Program-made: the position numbers and the translations under genes
Part shown: one piece after another, positions 26,022-33,788 of the stretch
Layout: every line of letters begins with the position of its first letter
Numbering within the stretch: the first letter of the stretch is position 1
Notes under the pieces: generated by a model
What the model saw: only the letters and a program-made list of their open reading frames with translations
What the model was told of the DNA's origin: nothing
Databases searched by the model: none
DNA from: Mycolicibacterium rufum
Lineage (GTDB): Bacteria; Actinomycetota; Actinomycetes; Mycobacteriales; Mycobacteriaceae
Assembly (NCBI RefSeq): GCF_022374875.2
Contig: NZ_CP092427.2
Span: 2,914,001 to 2,978,000, forward strand
Direction of reading: 5' to 3'
Length of the DNA: 64,000 nucleotides

Positions 26022-26552
26022 CTACAGGTAGGGGTTGATGCGTTCGGGGTAGTTCAGGACGAGGGATCCGAGTGCTTGTTTCCAGCCGTTGGTGCGGGCT
26101 CCTTCGACGAGGCGGGTGTGGCGGGAGCGGTCTCCGGTGGCGAGGGGGTCGTCGATGTATCTCTGGCGTTCTCGGGCGCGTTTGTCTTCGATGTTGCAGA
26201 TCGCCAGCCACAGCAGTTTGACCGCGGCGGCGTCGTTAGGGAAGTGTCCGCGGTTTTTGATGATCTTGCGCAGTTGATAGTTCAGCGATTCGATCGCGTT
26301 GGTGGTGTAGATGATCCGCCGCAGCTCCGGCGGGAACGCCAGGAACGGGATGAACCGCTCCCACGCGTTACGCCACGCGATCACTGTCGTCGGGTTTGAC
26401 TGTCCTAGAGTGGAATTGGCGAACTCTTCGAACGCCTCGGTCGCGGCGTCGACGGTCGGGGCGGTGTAGACGGTTTTCAATGCCGCGGCGATCGCCTTGC
26501 GCTGACCATAGGAGACGAACCGCATCGAGTTGCGGATCAGATGCACCACGCA
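26022..26552 (-). pseudogene. IS256 transposase, C-terminal part
   Basis: Reads CVVHLIRNSMRFVSYG ... RRIIYTTNAIESLNYQLRKIIKNRGHFPND ... ERINPYL. It contains the third catalytic acidic region of the IS256 DDE core (TTNAIESLN, the E). It continues the N-terminal part at 28106-28870 in the same sense; the codon for the Cys of VQTCVVH is where the IS110 element entered. Confidence 0.85.
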
Positions 26553-26638
26553 GACTCCCGCTGTCAACCTTTCATCGTGGACGTGTTTGGTCGCCGCGAC
26601 TGACTCGGTTTGCTCAGCGCGGTCGTGGGGAGGGCGGA

Positions 26639-27859
26639 CTATGCCGCGGTGGTGCGGTGGTGGATGACCGGGTCGTAGAGGGTGTGATCGTGCCAGCAGC
26701 GCCACAGAATGCGGCACCAGCGCGCACCCAGGCCACGCAGAGCGCGGTGGTGTGGTTGGCCGGCGGCGCGGGCGTGTTCGTAGATGTCGGCCGACCATGG
26801 GTCCTCACGGACGGCGACGAACATCCACCAGTCGATGGCGTGGCGCATTCGCCGGTTGGCGGCGTAGCGGAACCTCACCTGACGGGTGCGCCCGGAGGCC
26901 TTGGTGACCGGAGCCAAGCCGGTCTCGGCCAACAACGACGGCGCCGATGGGAAACGGCTGCGCTGTTCACCCATTTCGGAGATTAATACGCCGGCGGTGA
27001 CGGGACCGATACCAGGGAAGCTGGTGAAGATCGGAGTGTCCGGGTGCATGTCGAGCAACTCGCCCAGCCGCTTGTCGTGGGCTCGCAGGTGAGTGTTGAG
27101 TAGCGCGAGCTGTTCTGTGAATGCTTTGGCCGCCAACGCTTTACCGGCGACGGTTCCTTCACTGGCCGACAACAGATGAGGCTGCATCCGGGCGATGAGC
27201 GTCTCAGGTTTCTGCCGGCCACTGTAGCCGTGTCGGCCGGTGAATCCACCCATTCGTCTCGTCGTGACCCTGCTCGCCTGCGCGGGAGTGGGAAAGGTCC
27301 GGATGAACGCCAGGGTGATGTCACGGTCCAACGAGGAGAACAGGTGCAAAGGTGCGGGGTGGTAGGCCTCCAAGATCGACCGCAGCCGATTTTCGGTATC
27401 CACCTGCATATCCAGGATGCGCTGACGATCCCGGCTGACCGCGATCAGCTCGGCCAATACCGGCGACGCAACAGCCAACGGCCGCCACTGGGCATATTGG
27501 TGACGCAACGTGTCGGCCAAAACGTAGGCATCGAACTCGTCGGACTTGGCCGCCGCCATCCGATACCGTTCACGTGCACGCGCCGAGATCTTCGGTGACA
27601 CGCAATAGATTTCAGCGCTACAGTGCTGTTGCAGATGCTCGACAAGCAAGCCCTCGGCGCGTTCGATGGCGATACGCACCGAGCCAGTCAGTGAGGCGAT
27701 CACCTCGACCAATATCGTCAAACCGTCGACGGTGTGCGCGATCTTTCGGCTGAGAAGCTGCCCGCCGCGGTCGTCGAGGACGCAGAGGTAATGGGAGCGT
27801 CCGCCCCAATCAATGCCGCACCAGAAACGACTTGCACCGTCCGGACTATCCTGATTCAT
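26639..27859 (-). CDS. IS110-family DEDD recombinase (transposase)
   Basis: This 406-residue protein starts with the RuvC-like DEDD domain (WCGIDWGGRSHYLCVLDD; E in AIERAEGLLVEHLQ; D in KSDEFDAYVLAD) and ends with the transposase_20 helix-hairpin-helix region (FTSFPGIGPVTAGVLISEMGE) carrying the serine needed for cleavage nearby (FPSAPSLLAETGLAP). All four acidic residues appear present, so it may be active. The frame also runs open upstream through the leader into the IS256 N-terminal part (to 28870), a read-through fusion that is probably accidental. The ATG at 27859 is chosen as the natural start. Confidence 0.88.
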   Translation of the reverse strand: MNQDSPDGASRFWCGIDWGGRSHYLCVLDDRGGQLLSRKIAHTVDGLTILVEVIASLTGSVRIAIERAEGLLVEHLQQHCSAEIYCVSPKISARARERYRMAAAKSDEFDAYVLADTLRHQYAQWRPLAVASPVLAELIAVSRDRQRILDMQVDTENRLRSILEAYHPAPLHLFSSLDRDITLAFIRTFPTPAQASRVTTRRMGGFTGRHGYSGRQKPETLIARMQPHLLSASEGTVAGKALAAKAFTEQLALLNTHLRAHDKRLGELLDMHPDTPIFTSFPGIGPVTAGVLISEMGEQRSRFPSAPSLLAETGLAPVTKASGRTRQVRFRYAANRRMRHAIDWWMFVAVREDPWSADIYEHARAAGQPHHRALRGLGARWCRILWRCWHDHTLYDPVIHHRTTAA

Positions 27860-27899
27860 TGCAGTCAGATCCCCTTCGATCCGAAGATTCACGCTGCAA

Positions 27900-28065
27900 T
27901 GTGCGGGGCGTGCCCGGAACCTCATCTCGGCACTCGCCGCTGATACCGGTGGTGCTGCTCTCGCTGGCCGGTCCAAGCCCCGCAGCCACCACGGGCGGAC
28001 AGGTCTGCATGTGGACCTCGAAGGTGACGCGTTTGCACAGGTCCTGCCCGTGGTGGTGCAGGTGA
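27900..28065 (-). ncRNA. Putative bridge RNA of the IS110 element
   Basis: The leader before the recombinase can form two hairpins. The first (28056-27986) has an 11-bp stem (CCACCACGGGC with its complement). Its 5' loop side reads GTGCAAAC (target left half: GTGCAGAC) and its 3' side CATGCAG (complement of core plus target right half, CTGCGTG, with one G-U). The second (27981-27905, stems GGGGC/GCCCC and CCGG/CCGG) holds CAGCGAGAGC (element right end: CAGCGGGAGT) and AGATGAG (exact complement of core plus element left end, CTCATCT). The order left-target, right-target, left-donor, right-donor is that known for IS621 bridge RNA. The RNA limits are approximate. Confidence 0.62.
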
Positions 28066-28106
28066 ACGCCGAGACCATCCCGGCCCACCCATTGTTAATA
28101 GATGAG

Positions 28107-28870
28107 GTCTGCACCGTGGTCTGCGGCCAGGTCGCCTCGACGGCTTCGGCGAAACCGGTCAGCCCGTCGGTGCACACGATCAGGATGTCCTTGACGCCAC
28201 GGTTGGCCAGCTCGGCGCATACCCCGGCCCAGAACTTCGCCCCCTCATGGGCGGTCACCCAGATCCCCAGCACGTGCCGGATCCCGTCGAGATCGACACC
28301 GACGGCGATGTGGGCGGCTCGGTTCTTGACCTGGTGACCGTCGCGGATCTTGATGACCAGAGCGTCGAGGTAAACGATCGGATACAGCTCCTCAAGGGGG
28401 CGTTTCTGCCACTGGGTGACCTCCTCGAGCACCGCGTCGGTGATCCGCGAGATCGTGTCGTGGGACAGCTCGGTGCCGATCGTGGTGGCCAGATGATGCT
28501 GGATATCGCGGATCGTCATCCCGCCGGCGTAGAGCGAAATGATCATGTCGTCCAGACCGCCCAGGCGCCGCGAGCCCTTCGGGACCAGGGTCGGGGTGAA
28601 GCTGCCGTCCCGGTCGCGCGGGATCGCCAACCCCACGTCGCCGACCTCGCTGGCGACCGTCTTGGGCGTGAACCCGTTGCGAGCATTGGGCAGCTCACGC
28701 CCTACGGGATCACCCTTGTCGTATCCGAGGTGATCGGTCAGCTCAGCAGCCAACCCGCGCTCGAGCACCGCTTTGACCATCTCGGGCAGAAACCCACCCT
28801 GACCGGTCAACTGCAGCTGGCCCGCATCGATCTTGGCCAGCACGTCATCGAGAACACCTGCGGACTTCAA
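28107..28870 (-). pseudogene. IS256 transposase, N-terminal part
   Basis: Reads KSAGVLDDVLAKIDAGQLQLTGQGGF ... DHLGYDKGDP ... FTPTLVPKGSRRLGGLDDMIISLYAGGM ... YPIVYLDALVIKIRDG ... VKDILIVCTDGLTGFAEAVEATWPQTTVQT. It holds the first two catalytic Asp of IS256 (YLDA and TDGL). The first start in this frame is a TTG. The likely native start (ATGTCGGGGC region near 28890) is one base out of frame, which points to an extra frameshift, so this copy was probably dead before the IS110 entry. Confidence 0.8.
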
Positions 28871-30152: not shown

Positions 30153-30333
30153 AGCCCGCCATCATCCCCGACCTCACTACCACCGACGCGGCCACACACA
30201 GCGCGGTCGCGGTGCTGCCGGTCGGGGCGTTCGAGCAGCACGGCCCCTACCTGCCCCTGGGCACCGACACCGGGTCTGCTGCACGAATAGGTGACATTTG
30301 AGTTGGCTTGCCCGGGACGGGTGGGCTGGAAGG

Positions 30334-30651
30334 ATGTTCCTTGTGCCTAGGCCTTACCCCCGTGAGTTCCGCGACGATGTCGTGCGCGTGGCCCGCAACC
30401 GTGATGACGGTGTGACGATCGAGCAGATCGCGAGTGATTTCGGGGTGCACCCGATGACGCTGCAGAAATGGCTCCGTCAGGCCAACATCGAGGAGGGCAC
30501 CAAGCCCGGCAAGAGCGCCAGCGAGTCCGGTGAGCTGCGCGAAGCGCGGCGGCGGATCAAGCTGCTCGAACAGGAGAACGAGGTGCTGCGCCGGGCTGCG
30601 GCGTATCTGTCGCAGGCCAATCTGCCGGGAAAAGGGTCTACCCGCTCGTGA
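30334..30651 (+). CDS. IS3 transposase OrfA (HTH)
   Basis: This 105-residue protein has an HTH_21/InsN-type helix-turn-helix (RPYPREFRDDVVRVARNRDDGVTIEQIASDFGVHPMTLQKWLRQA) and a leucine-zipper segment (REARRRIKLLEQENEVLRRAAAYL). An AAAAGGG run at about 30630-30636 precedes the stop and could allow the programmed -1 shift into orfB typical of the family. AAGG before the ATG serves as ribosome site. Confidence 0.88.
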   Translation: MFLVPRPYPREFRDDVVRVARNRDDGVTIEQIASDFGVHPMTLQKWLRQANIEEGTKPGKSASESGELREARRRIKLLEQENEVLRRAAAYLSQANLPGKGSTRS

Positions 30652-31505
30652 AAGAGCTCGCCGCCGACGGGATCCCTGTCGCGGTGACGTGCCGGGTACT
30701 CAAGCTCTCCCGCCAGCCGTATTACCGCTGGCTGGCCGACCCCATCACCGATGCCGAACTCGTTGAGGCCTACCGCGCCAATGCGCTGTTCGACGCGCAC
30801 GCAGACGATCCGGAGTTCGGCTACCGCTACCTCGTGGAGGAGGCGCGCGATGCCGGGGAGCCGATGGCCGAGCGCACCGCCTGGCGGATCTGTTCGCAGA
30901 ACCGACTGTGGAGCGTGTTTGGTAAGAAGCGCGGCAAAAACGGCAAAGTCGGGCCGCCGGTGCACGACGATCTTGTCGAGCGTGACTTCACCGCTGACAG
31001 GCCAAATCAGTTGTGGCTCAGTGACATCACTGAGCACCGCACCGGTGAGGGCAAGCTCTACCTCTGTGCGATTAAGGACGTGTTCTCCAACCGGATCGTC
31101 GGCTACAGCATCGACTCCCGCATGAAGTCACAACTGGCCATCCGGGCACTACACAGCGCGGTAGCCCGACGCGGAGATGTCGCGGGGTGCATTCTGCACT
31201 CGGATCGCGGATCTCAGTTCCGGTCAAGGAAATTCGTACACGCCTTGAATCACCACGAGATGGTCGGCTCTATGGGCCGTGTCGGGGCCGCCGGTGACAA
31301 CGCCGCCATGGAGAGCTTCTTTAGCCTGCTGCAGAAGAACGTGCTCGACCGCCGCCGCTGGGACACCCGAGAACAACTCCGCATCGCGATCGTCACCTGG
31401 ATCGAGCGCACCTACCACCGGCGCCGCCGCCAGTCCGGCCTCGGGCGGTTGACCCCGATCGAATTCGAAGCAATCATGACCACACCGGCCAGTCAGGCCG
31501 CGTGA
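30648..31505 (+). CDS. IS3 transposase OrfB (DDE integrase core)
   Basis: Frame of 285 residues in the -1 phase relative to orfA; its first GTG overlaps the orfA stop, but it is probably made mainly as an OrfAB fusion. The DDE core shows D in LSDITEHR, D in LHSDRGSQF and E in NAAMESFFSLLQKNVL, plus the HTH_21 lead (RANALFDAHADDPEFGYRYL). Looks intact, so the element may still move. Confidence 0.9.
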   Translation: MKELAADGIPVAVTCRVLKLSRQPYYRWLADPITDAELVEAYRANALFDAHADDPEFGYRYLVEEARDAGEPMAERTAWRICSQNRLWSVFGKKRGKNGKVGPPVHDDLVERDFTADRPNQLWLSDITEHRTGEGKLYLCAIKDVFSNRIVGYSIDSRMKSQLAIRALHSAVARRGDVAGCILHSDRGSQFRSRKFVHALNHHEMVGSMGRVGAAGDNAAMESFFSLLQKNVLDRRRWDTREQLRIAIVTWIERTYHRRRRQSGLGRLTPIEFEAIMTTPASQAA

Positions 31506-32401: not shown

Positions 32402-33788
32402 GGGACTATCTCGCTAACGGTGTTTCCGGCGGTTTTCATCAGTAGGTTTCGGCTGCCGGGAATCGATCGGCGAAGGTGATCGCGAACGCATTCAGGGCAG
32501 GTTTCCACCGCATCGTCCATCGTGCCTTACCGCGGCCGGTGGGGTCCAGGGATCGGGTGACCAGGTAGAGGCACTTGAGGGCGGCCTGCTCGGAGGGGAA
32601 GTGGCCGCGGGCCTTGATCGCGCGGCGGTAGCGGGCGTTGAGCGACTCGATGGCATTGGTGCTACAGATGACACGGCGGATCTCCACGTCGTAGTCCAGG
32701 AACGGGATGAACTCCGCCCAGGCGTTGTCCCACAGGCGGATCACCGCCGGGTAGCGTTGCCCCCATTTCTCGGCCAGATCGTCGAACGCTGCGCGGGCCG
32801 CGGTCGCGTTGACTGCGGTGTAGATCGGTTTCACATCACGCTTGATCTCATCCCAGTACTTGCGGGACGTGAGCCGAAAGGTGTTGCGCAGCAAGTGAAT
32901 GATGCACGTCTGCACGATCGCCTGCGGCCACACGTTGCCCACCACCTCGGGCAGTCCCTTCAGCCCATCGCAGACGACGAAGAAGCTGTCCTTGACGCCG
33001 CGGTTGCGCAGATCGGTGAGCACGCTCATCCAGAACTTCGCGCCCTCCCCGCCGGTGCCGGCCCACAATCCGAGGATGTCGCGTTCCCCGGCCAGGGTCA
33101 CTCCGATCGCGGCGTAGAACGGGCGGTTGGCGACCTGGCCGTCGCGGACCTTCACCACGATCGCGTCGATGAAGATCGCGGCGTAGGTTTCATCGAGTGG
33201 CCGCACCGACCAATCGTTCATCTCCTCGATGACCTTGTCGGTGATGCGGCTGATCGTCTCCTTCGAGACCGACGCGCCGTAGATCTCAGCGAAATGCGCT
33301 GAAATCTCCCCAGTGGTAAGCCCTTTGGCGTACAACGACAAGACCACCTCATCGACCCCGGACAATCGGCGTTGACGTTTCTTGACGATCTGGGGCTCGA
33401 ACGTGGATGCCCGATCGCGCGGCACGTCGAGTTCGACCGGGCCGGTGGTGTCGGTCAGCACCGTCTTGGTGCGGGTCCCGTTGCGGATGTTGCCCGACCC
33501 CGCCTCCGGCGGGTCGTGTTTCTCGTAACCGAGGTGCTCGGTCATCTCCTCATTGAGTGCGATCTCCAGGACCGTCTTGGTCAGCTGTTTGAGCAGCCCG
33601 TCGGGCCCAGTCAGCGACAGGCCCTGTTCCTGTGCCAGTCGGACCAGCTCGACGGCAGCCTTCTGCTCTGCGGACTGCTCAGCCGCCTTCTTCTTCGCCA
33701 CATCTTCCAGTGTCGTCATCACGGCACCTTTCTCGCCGAGCATCGCTCAGCGTGTCAGTACCGGAAACACCGTTATTTCCACAGTCCC
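32402..33788 (-). mobile_element. Second IS256-family element, complete with 8-bp duplication
   Basis: Ends GGGACT...TAACGGTGTTTCCGG match in inverted orientation on both sides with a 7-base variable stretch inside. The perfect 8-base direct repeat TACTCGCA (32394-32401 and 33789-33796) marks the target site. At 1387 bases with an intact transposase it looks recent. It is a different subgroup from the one at 26-29 kb. Confidence 0.9.
32439..33719 (-). CDS. IS256-family transposase
   Basis: This 426-residue protein has the IS256 (mutator) features: NEEMTEHLGYEKHDP, the first Asp in AIFIDAIVVKVRDG, the second in VVCDGLKGLPE and the Glu in CSTNAIESLNARYRR, followed by the HFPSEQAALK motif. No stop or shift is seen. 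The ATG at 33719 is chosen; two upstream starts are possible. Confidence 0.92.
   Translation of the reverse strand: MTTLEDVAKKKAAEQSAEQKAAVELVRLAQEQGLSLTGPDGLLKQLTKTVLEIALNEEMTEHLGYEKHDPPEAGSGNIRNGTRTKTVLTDTTGPVELDVPRDRASTFEPQIVKKRQRRLSGVDEVVLSLYAKGLTTGEISAHFAEIYGASVSKETISRITDKVIEEMNDWSVRPLDETYAAIFIDAIVVKVRDGQVANRPFYAAIGVTLAGERDILGLWAGTGGEGAKFWMSVLTDLRNRGVKDSFFVVCDGLKGLPEVVGNVWPQAIVQTCIIHLLRNTFRLTSRKYWDEIKRDVKPIYTAVNATAARAAFDDLAEKWGQRYPAVIRLWDNAWAEFIPFLDYDVEIRRVICSTNAIESLNARYRRAIKARGHFPSEQAALKCLYLVTRSLDPTGRGKARWTMRWKPALNAFAITFADRFPAAETY

Follow-up and report, generated by a model that had tools for sequence, protein, structure and literature searches.

The window, a stretch of 64,000 nucleotides of the Mycolicibacterium rufum genome, contains an active-looking element of the IS110 group, and it is very likely that a predicted bridge RNA of the IS621 type guides the recombinase of this element into a conserved motif of IS256-family transposase genes. 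One such gene is interrupted in the window, where the following parts can be distinguished.

26022..26551, minus strand: IS256 transposase gene, 3' part (PF00872 profile positions 253-374, E 5.5e-31)
26547-26551, minus strand: right target GCGTG, within the IS256 3' part
26552..26553, minus strand: right-junction core CT (CT in 29/29 copies with the right end read)
26554..28104, minus strand: IS110 element, 1,551 bp between both core dinucleotides, delimited by seven identical genome copies and by comparison with empty sites
26554..26563, minus strand: left donor sequence CAGCGGGAGT, read in the sequence
26562..26567, minus strand: TTGACA, candidate -35 box located in the right end, for a circle-junction promoter by analogy with IS621 (PMC11208160, PMC11208158)
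26639..27859, minus strand: IS110 recombinase gene, 406 aa, ATG and TAG read (PF01548, PF02371 and NF033542 above their cut-offs)
28105..28106, minus strand: left-junction core CT, its first base target-derived (C here, G or A in 10/30 copies)
28107..28870, minus strand: IS256 transposase gene, 5' part (PF00872 profile positions 18-249, E 3.7e-75)
28107-28114, minus strand: left target GTGCAGAC, within the IS256 5' part

On the minus strand, the junctions read GTGCAGAC-CT at 28114-28105 and CAGCGGGAGT-CT-GCGTG at 26563-26547. Position 28870 is the first listed start codon of the interrupted gene, the true start of which possibly lies further up. The recombinase carries an N-terminal DEDD/RuvC-like domain (PF01548, E 2.8e-28) and a C-terminal PF02371 domain (E 5.2e-15), and reaches 165.6 bits against NF033542 (cut-off 140). 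Its similarity to IS621 is weak (E 5.3e-6, or 4.4e-12 with a five-sequence profile), and as to the putative catalytic D, E, D, D and serine, KSDEFD lies opposite KTDTVD and ASGR opposite ESGS in this alignment; the first D could be aligned just in a weak stretch to ISCro4. The non-coding ends of the element measure 245 nt on the left vs 85 nt on the right, with the guides in the left end, upstream of the gene. The candidate -10 box that would go with TTGACA looks weak, the promoter scan having been confined to the linear copy.

The genome (6.1 Mb, three contigs) holds at least seven identical copies of the element among the best 40 of 165 candidates scored. Six interrupt one type of IS256 gene, their flanks agreeing at 98-100% over 300 bp. 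The gene interrupted by the seventh (L007, contig 2) is of another type, 54% alike to the first in the left flank and 40% in the right. Because six of the seven have nearly identical flanks, the copies of this genome may stem from fewer insertions. Uninterrupted IS256 genes of both types were found by pattern search, with GTGCAGAC-CT-GCGTG in L008 and GTGCAGAC-GT-GCATC in L010 and L011, and these empty sites fix the junctions of the element. One of them lies in the window itself:

32901..32915, minus strand: unoccupied intact target GTGCAGACGTGCATC (L010), within a second-type IS256 gene (32544-33647) that is uninterrupted

A fourth exact pattern match (L009) lies outside IS256 genes and is unoccupied. 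Genome-wide, ten sites are within two mismatches of the guide-derived target, three of them being the empty IS256 sites; the other seven, equally near the guides, are unused, and a reversed control pattern finds five sites within the same distance. An inventory of 17 IS256 genes, from which one short fragment (L123) was left out, comprises ten with a guide-like site, seven occupied (not all independent) and three empty. The remaining seven, reading R-Q-R-C or E-Q-R-C with five to six mismatches, are in no case interrupted at the motif (0/7). The C-x2-H motif is functionally important in IS256/Mutator transposases, and all ten uninterrupted IS256 genes that were inspected in this genome contain it.

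Near relatives with recombinases 85-97% identical were found when 297 genomes of the genus were searched, their hosts including Mycolicibacterium frederiksbergense, Mycobacterium terramassiliense, M. interjectum and M. aquaticum. Three diverged elements have recombinases 53-54% identical: L081 (same order), L095 (a Pseudonocardia plasmid) and L097 (an M. chubuense plasmid). Every one of the 30 copies with a readable left end (right side read in 29) is inserted at the same two codons, in sense orientation, these being Thr/Arg-Cys of V-Q-T-C or W-Q-R-C. The copies had been found by recombinase or leader similarity, independently of their flanks. They interrupt 14 distinct IS256-type genes (clustered at 92% over the 200-bp left flank), the left flanks of which are between 37%, i.e., chance level by that measure, and 88% alike; the site is, therefore, not explained by shared flanks. 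Four of these types are occupied within a single genome (G004), and two in the genome of the window. IS256 identity is based on tblastn for part of the loci, and the upstream peptide of each cluster representative ends in VQT or WQR. All copy counts are lower bounds, obtained from the best-scoring candidates per genome.

Several further loci stand outside the 30, namely the truncated L035/L047 and L048 (right end only, with adjoining IS256-like sequence), L049 (an internal piece), L096 (a second Pseudonocardia strain, one base from L095 over 6,941), L021 (letters as L097) and repeat records of the same places. Another insertion splits the M. chubuense plasmid copy itself (L097, 3870-5210), which has kept both ends and near-perfect guides. 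A wider search (E <= 1e-90) of 394 genomes of the class and 17 of one family found no new member among the best candidates scored.

Seven multi-copy IS110 lineages with recombinases 32-38% identical (two to five copies sampled in each) served as controls, and the six with resolvable element ends (all but G064) occupy unrelated flanks beyond the shared stretch. Since six of the seven control lineages occupy unrelated flanks, IS256 targeting is a trait of this lineage and not of the family. One IS110 copy 34% identical (L024) splits an IS256 gene as well, but is oppositely oriented and lies slightly upstream of the Q-R-C motif. It is treated as incidental, because point and orientation differ and the flanks of its sister copy L124 are different.

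The left end of the element contains the predicted RNA, with the following parts.

27903..28090, minus strand: predicted bridge RNA, its ends placed according to the fold
28068..28084, minus strand: 5' stem-loop GCCGGGA-UGG-UCUCGGC, 7 pairs (69/70 cells paired over ten leaders)
27986..28056, minus strand: target-binding stem-loop, with compensatory changes in the outer stem
28031..28038, minus strand: left target guide GUGCAAAC, 7/8 to GTGCAGAC
28005..28011, minus strand: right target guide CAUGCAG, 6 Watson-Crick pairs and one G-U of 7
28003..28004, minus strand: target-loop handshake guide AC, which with the right target guide pairs the right junction GTCTGCGTG (8 and one G-U of 9)
27903..27983, minus strand: donor-binding stem-loop, its loop strands 12 nt each in the fold with guides held open
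27957..27966, minus strand: left donor guide CAGCGAGAGC, 8/10 to the element's own right end CAGCGGGAGT
27921..27927, minus strand: right donor guide AGAUGAG, exact complement of CTCATCT
27919..27920, minus strand: donor-loop handshake guide GU, which extends the right donor guide to an exact complement (9/9) of the left junction ACCTCATCT

An earlier note, made from the letters of the window alone, had proposed a bridge RNA with two guide loops in this leader. The four guide strings that it named are all present on the minus strand (GTGCAAAC at 28038-28031, CATGCAG at 28011-28005, CAGCGAGAGC at 27966-27957 and AGATGAG at 27927-27921), and its pairing counts (7/8, one G-U, 8/10 and exact) were correct on recount. 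The order and polarity that it described, with the target loop followed by the donor loop in the left end, fit the IS110 group. The two-loop fold is obtained with the guides held open, but in the free minimum-energy fold, the target guides are partly paired with each other. Compared with shuffled leaders, the fold energy has a z of -2.99, with 2/200 shuffles at least as good.

The fold is conserved across relatives: two internal loops form in each of the ten distinct leaders when the guides are held open. On the donor side, the constraint itself kept 11 positions open in the left strand and 9 in the right. The target stem with its bulged A and inner GGAC/GUCC helix is found in all of them, and the donor loop measures 12 nt on each side in eight (13 in L097, 14 in L050). 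Compensatory pair changes occur at target-stem positions 1, 2 and 5-11, and at positions 3 and 4 of the donor closing stem. Broken pairs are limited to two outer target pairs each in L046 and L050, one in L095, and one inner pair in L081; outer target-stem positions 12-14 are unpaired in the near group. Because the MAFFT alignment of the ten leaders misplaces part of the loops, its consensus was used for the 5' stem-loop only, and the other helices were indexed by hand-set landmarks. Comparison of the leader with Rfam gave no match at the gathering score (chance match, E 0.71). The stretch CAGCGGCGAGT (27942-27932) was also considered as left donor guide, being similar to the right end but for one insertion, yet it is situated within the donor hairpin; the left donor guide of the earlier note was preferred, since L081 and L095 match 10/10 there. 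The two core-facing bases of the left guide (GC) mismatch CT.

Comparing the guide loops of relatives with their flanking targets had been suggested as a check, and the guides read at shared landmarks do fit the relatives' own targets. The near-group target is mostly GTGCAGAC-NT-GCRTS (Val-Gln-Thr-Cys), with left-hand variants such as GTTCAAAC, GTCCAGAC and GTACAGAC, and right-hand variants such as GTGTG or GCATT. The diverged-group target is TGGCARCG-CT-GCCGS (Trp-Gln-Arg-Cys), and the guides at the same landmarks are UGGCAGCG (UGGCAGGG in L081) and GCGGCAG. Left and right target guides match 8/8 and 7/7 in L097, 7 plus one G-U of 8 and 6/7 in L095, and 7/8 and 6/7 in L081. The left donor guide matches 10/10 in L081 and L095, and 9 plus one G-U of 10 in L097, while the right donor guide together with the handshake gives 9/9 in all three. 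To judge by these sequences, the guides of the diverged elements have changed together with the target, which goes beyond what the earlier note had claimed; this covariation represents one change between two element groups, not many independent ones.

Within the near group, the fit is less complete, in keeping with the caveat, already given, that the left guides are imperfect. The left target guide is mismatched in 26 of 27 copies, the matches being 8/8 in one (L077), 7/8 in 20, 6/8 in five (two of which have an added G-U) and 4/8 in one (L050, where the guide is one base shorter); the two small variations seen in this near-group guide bring no better fit. The left donor guide has two mismatches of ten, or three in L063. 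The frame-broken copies L046 and L019 fit poorly, with 3 plus one or two G-U of 7 for the right target guide, and 7/9 for the right donor guide with handshake. The left target guide (28031-28038) spells a CAA codon and 24 of the 27 near-group targets have CAG, an rA:dC mismatch that is kept across relatives. The same or nearly the same loops were not seen at unrelated sequences, all 27 near-group copies lying at the same IS256 codons; with the fold conserved as well, the bridge-RNA interpretation of the note is supported.

In IS621, the two bases adjoining each right guide form pairs with the other DNA once the strands have been exchanged (PMC11208158). The putative handshake guides of the present elements, absent from the earlier note, fit both junctions and co-vary with the target. 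The target-loop handshake is AC in both groups and matches the donor GT, and the donor-loop handshake follows target positions 6-7, being GU for AC and CG for CG. This joint change of GU to CG with AC to CG agrees with what the mechanism of IS621 predicts (PMC11208158). Taken as one stretch, AGAUGAGGU of the donor loop matches the left junction ACCTCATCT 9/9, or 8/9 for GT or AT cores and 7/9 in L046 and L019, and CAUGCAGAC of the target loop matches the right junction with 8 and one G-U of 9.

The core CT proposed in the note stands for the right junction (29/29) and for the element in the window, but not for the left junction in general, which reads CT, GT or AT, 10 of 30 copies being non-CT. 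The T is invariant (left NT in 30/30). The first core base on the left is the third base of the Thr codon, and it is identical to the base found in intact genes of both IS256 types in the window's genome. Since the right core is always CT and the left base follows the interrupted gene, the exchange point would lie 3' of the first core base. Top-strand cleavage in IS621 likewise occurs 3' of CT, the T being nearly invariant (PMC11208158). The core may equally be called a single T.

As the matches were first found by eye in a 215-nt GC-rich leader, they could in principle be due to chance. In a free search, random window sites with T in the second core place were compared with the whole leader, allowing any ordered left and right guide position, and G-U on the right guide; the score of the true target (14/15) was equalled by 41 of 3000 random sites, and that of the second true target (13/15) by 371 of 3000. 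A by-eye reading from a single element is, therefore, suggestive and no proof. Against chance, with the landmarks fixed (left guide directly 3' of GGACCT, right guide ending in GCAG before AC), a score of 14 is reached at only 2 of 1,119,112 positions of the pooled loci (both strands), and nowhere in the shuffled pool. Both positions represent one intact, real site, in an IS256 gene that entered the pool twice, as L008 and L100. The L095 target taken alone (13/15) is equalled by 37 of the 1,119,112 pooled positions. With the independent confirmation in the diverged elements, chance is refuted for the set as a whole, and can hardly be given any credence. It is also very unlikely that one old insertion was copied as IS256 transposed, the shared site being inherited and not targeted. 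The identical element letters and nearly identical flanks of six of the seven copies would suit inheritance, which may account for some of these six copies. As the sole explanation, inheritance is largely refuted by the spread of the element family over 14 IS256 gene types, four of them within G004, and by a left first core base that is C, G or A and equals the intact-gene base for both types of the window's genome.

Recognition of the motif by the recombinase protein, the leader being kept for another reason, e.g., attenuation or mRNA control, is still less probable. The RNA of this element is a prediction and the near-group guide fits are imperfect, both of which leave some room for such recognition, but in the three diverged elements, the guides vary together with the target, and so do the handshake bases. 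Leaders are 94-98% alike (nucleotide) vs 85-97% for the recombinases (protein), which is a hint only, because the measures differ. Moreover, members of both the IS110 and the IS1111 groups have been shown to use such RNA (PMC11208160, PMC11187229).

Under RNA guidance, the non-coding left end would encode an IS621-type bridge RNA, which would be transcribed and bound by the recombinase. By means of the target loop, the recombinase would be directed to the codons for [VW]-Q-[TR]-C-x2-H, a motif conserved in IS256-family transposases, and the donor loop would hold the joined ends of the element, probably excised as a circle. Top strands would be cut 3' of the NT core and exchanged with the help of the handshake guides. 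Guided insertion at the motif would thus bring the element into IS256 genes in sense orientation, splitting them.

In IS621 (PMC11208160, PMC11208158), the RNA likewise lies in a long left end, with a 5' stem-loop, a target loop and a donor loop; the left guides read as the top strand, and the right guides complement the top strand including the core. The CT donor core with its nearly invariant T, the top-strand cut 3' of the core (presumed here), the handshake guides and the -35 box in the right end (a candidate here) are further likenesses. Unlike IS621, which targets REP elements, this element targets a conserved coding motif of another transposase, and its natural target core is CT, GT or AT vs a CT donor; its recombinase has 406 aa. 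The RNA-guided IS1111-group seekRNA elements, such as ISKpn4, ISPa11 and IS4321 (PMC11187229), share the DEDD transposase and the site and orientation specificity. In that group, however, the RNA is found downstream of the gene with the target-matching parts reversed, whereas here the guides have the IS110-group order and lie in a long left end (PMC11187229).

The bridge-RNA principle, the guide order, the core rule and the handshake are, thus, already known from IS621, and seekRNAs from IS1111 (PMC11208160, PMC11208158, PMC11187229). What would apparently be new is an IS110 lineage specialised on a conserved transposase motif. In the literature searched, with subscription papers and supplements outside it, there was no IS110 lineage aimed at the IS256 C-x2-H motif with guides that follow its spelling, and the available text of PMC6446971 has nothing on the C-x2-H motif. 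Family and host group are common to this element, IS900 and other mycobacterial IS110-family elements, and the listed titles and abstract openings on these elements leave IS256 targeting unmentioned. A precedent for targeting another mobile element is offered by IS4321, which targets Tn21-type inverted repeats.

For bridge-RNA rules beyond IS621, the lineage constitutes a natural test set: it comprises two groups of guides and 14 target genes, sites known to be empty, a left core other than CT in ten copies, and handshake bases that vary with the target. As its guides are near-perfect, the diverged group is a candidate source of an actinobacterial bridge recombinase for use as a tool. To a programmable element, a motif conserved in another transposase would offer a safe, renewable and horizontally spreading niche, comparable to that of homing elements, which occupy conserved motifs of host genes. 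Tentatively, and with rather less than even support, the lineage may be regarded as a specialised, RNA-guided IS256 parasite that switches off IS256 copies and leaves host genes untouched, i.e., a natural RNA-guided transposon silencer. On this same tentative footing, its guides would be retuned, wobble and a first-core-base mismatch tolerated, and the motif tracked through synonymous and lineage changes.

Some minor features of the window were also recorded. Two adjoining frames at 30298-31505 resemble an IS3-type orfA/orfB pair (ORF list, by eye). The C-terminal part of the frame 26642-27859 weakly matches a TIGR-Tas endonuclease model (E 3.5e-5, under the cut-off), and a TIGR-Tas study reportedly speaks of IS110. 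A single open frame (26639-28870) runs through the 5' part of the IS256 gene, the leader and the IS110 gene, and is 754-770 codons long in the copies of the window's genome and 426-509 in the intact near relatives listed. As one open frame spans this stretch, an IS256-IS110 fusion protein, read through the guide RNA, may be possible.
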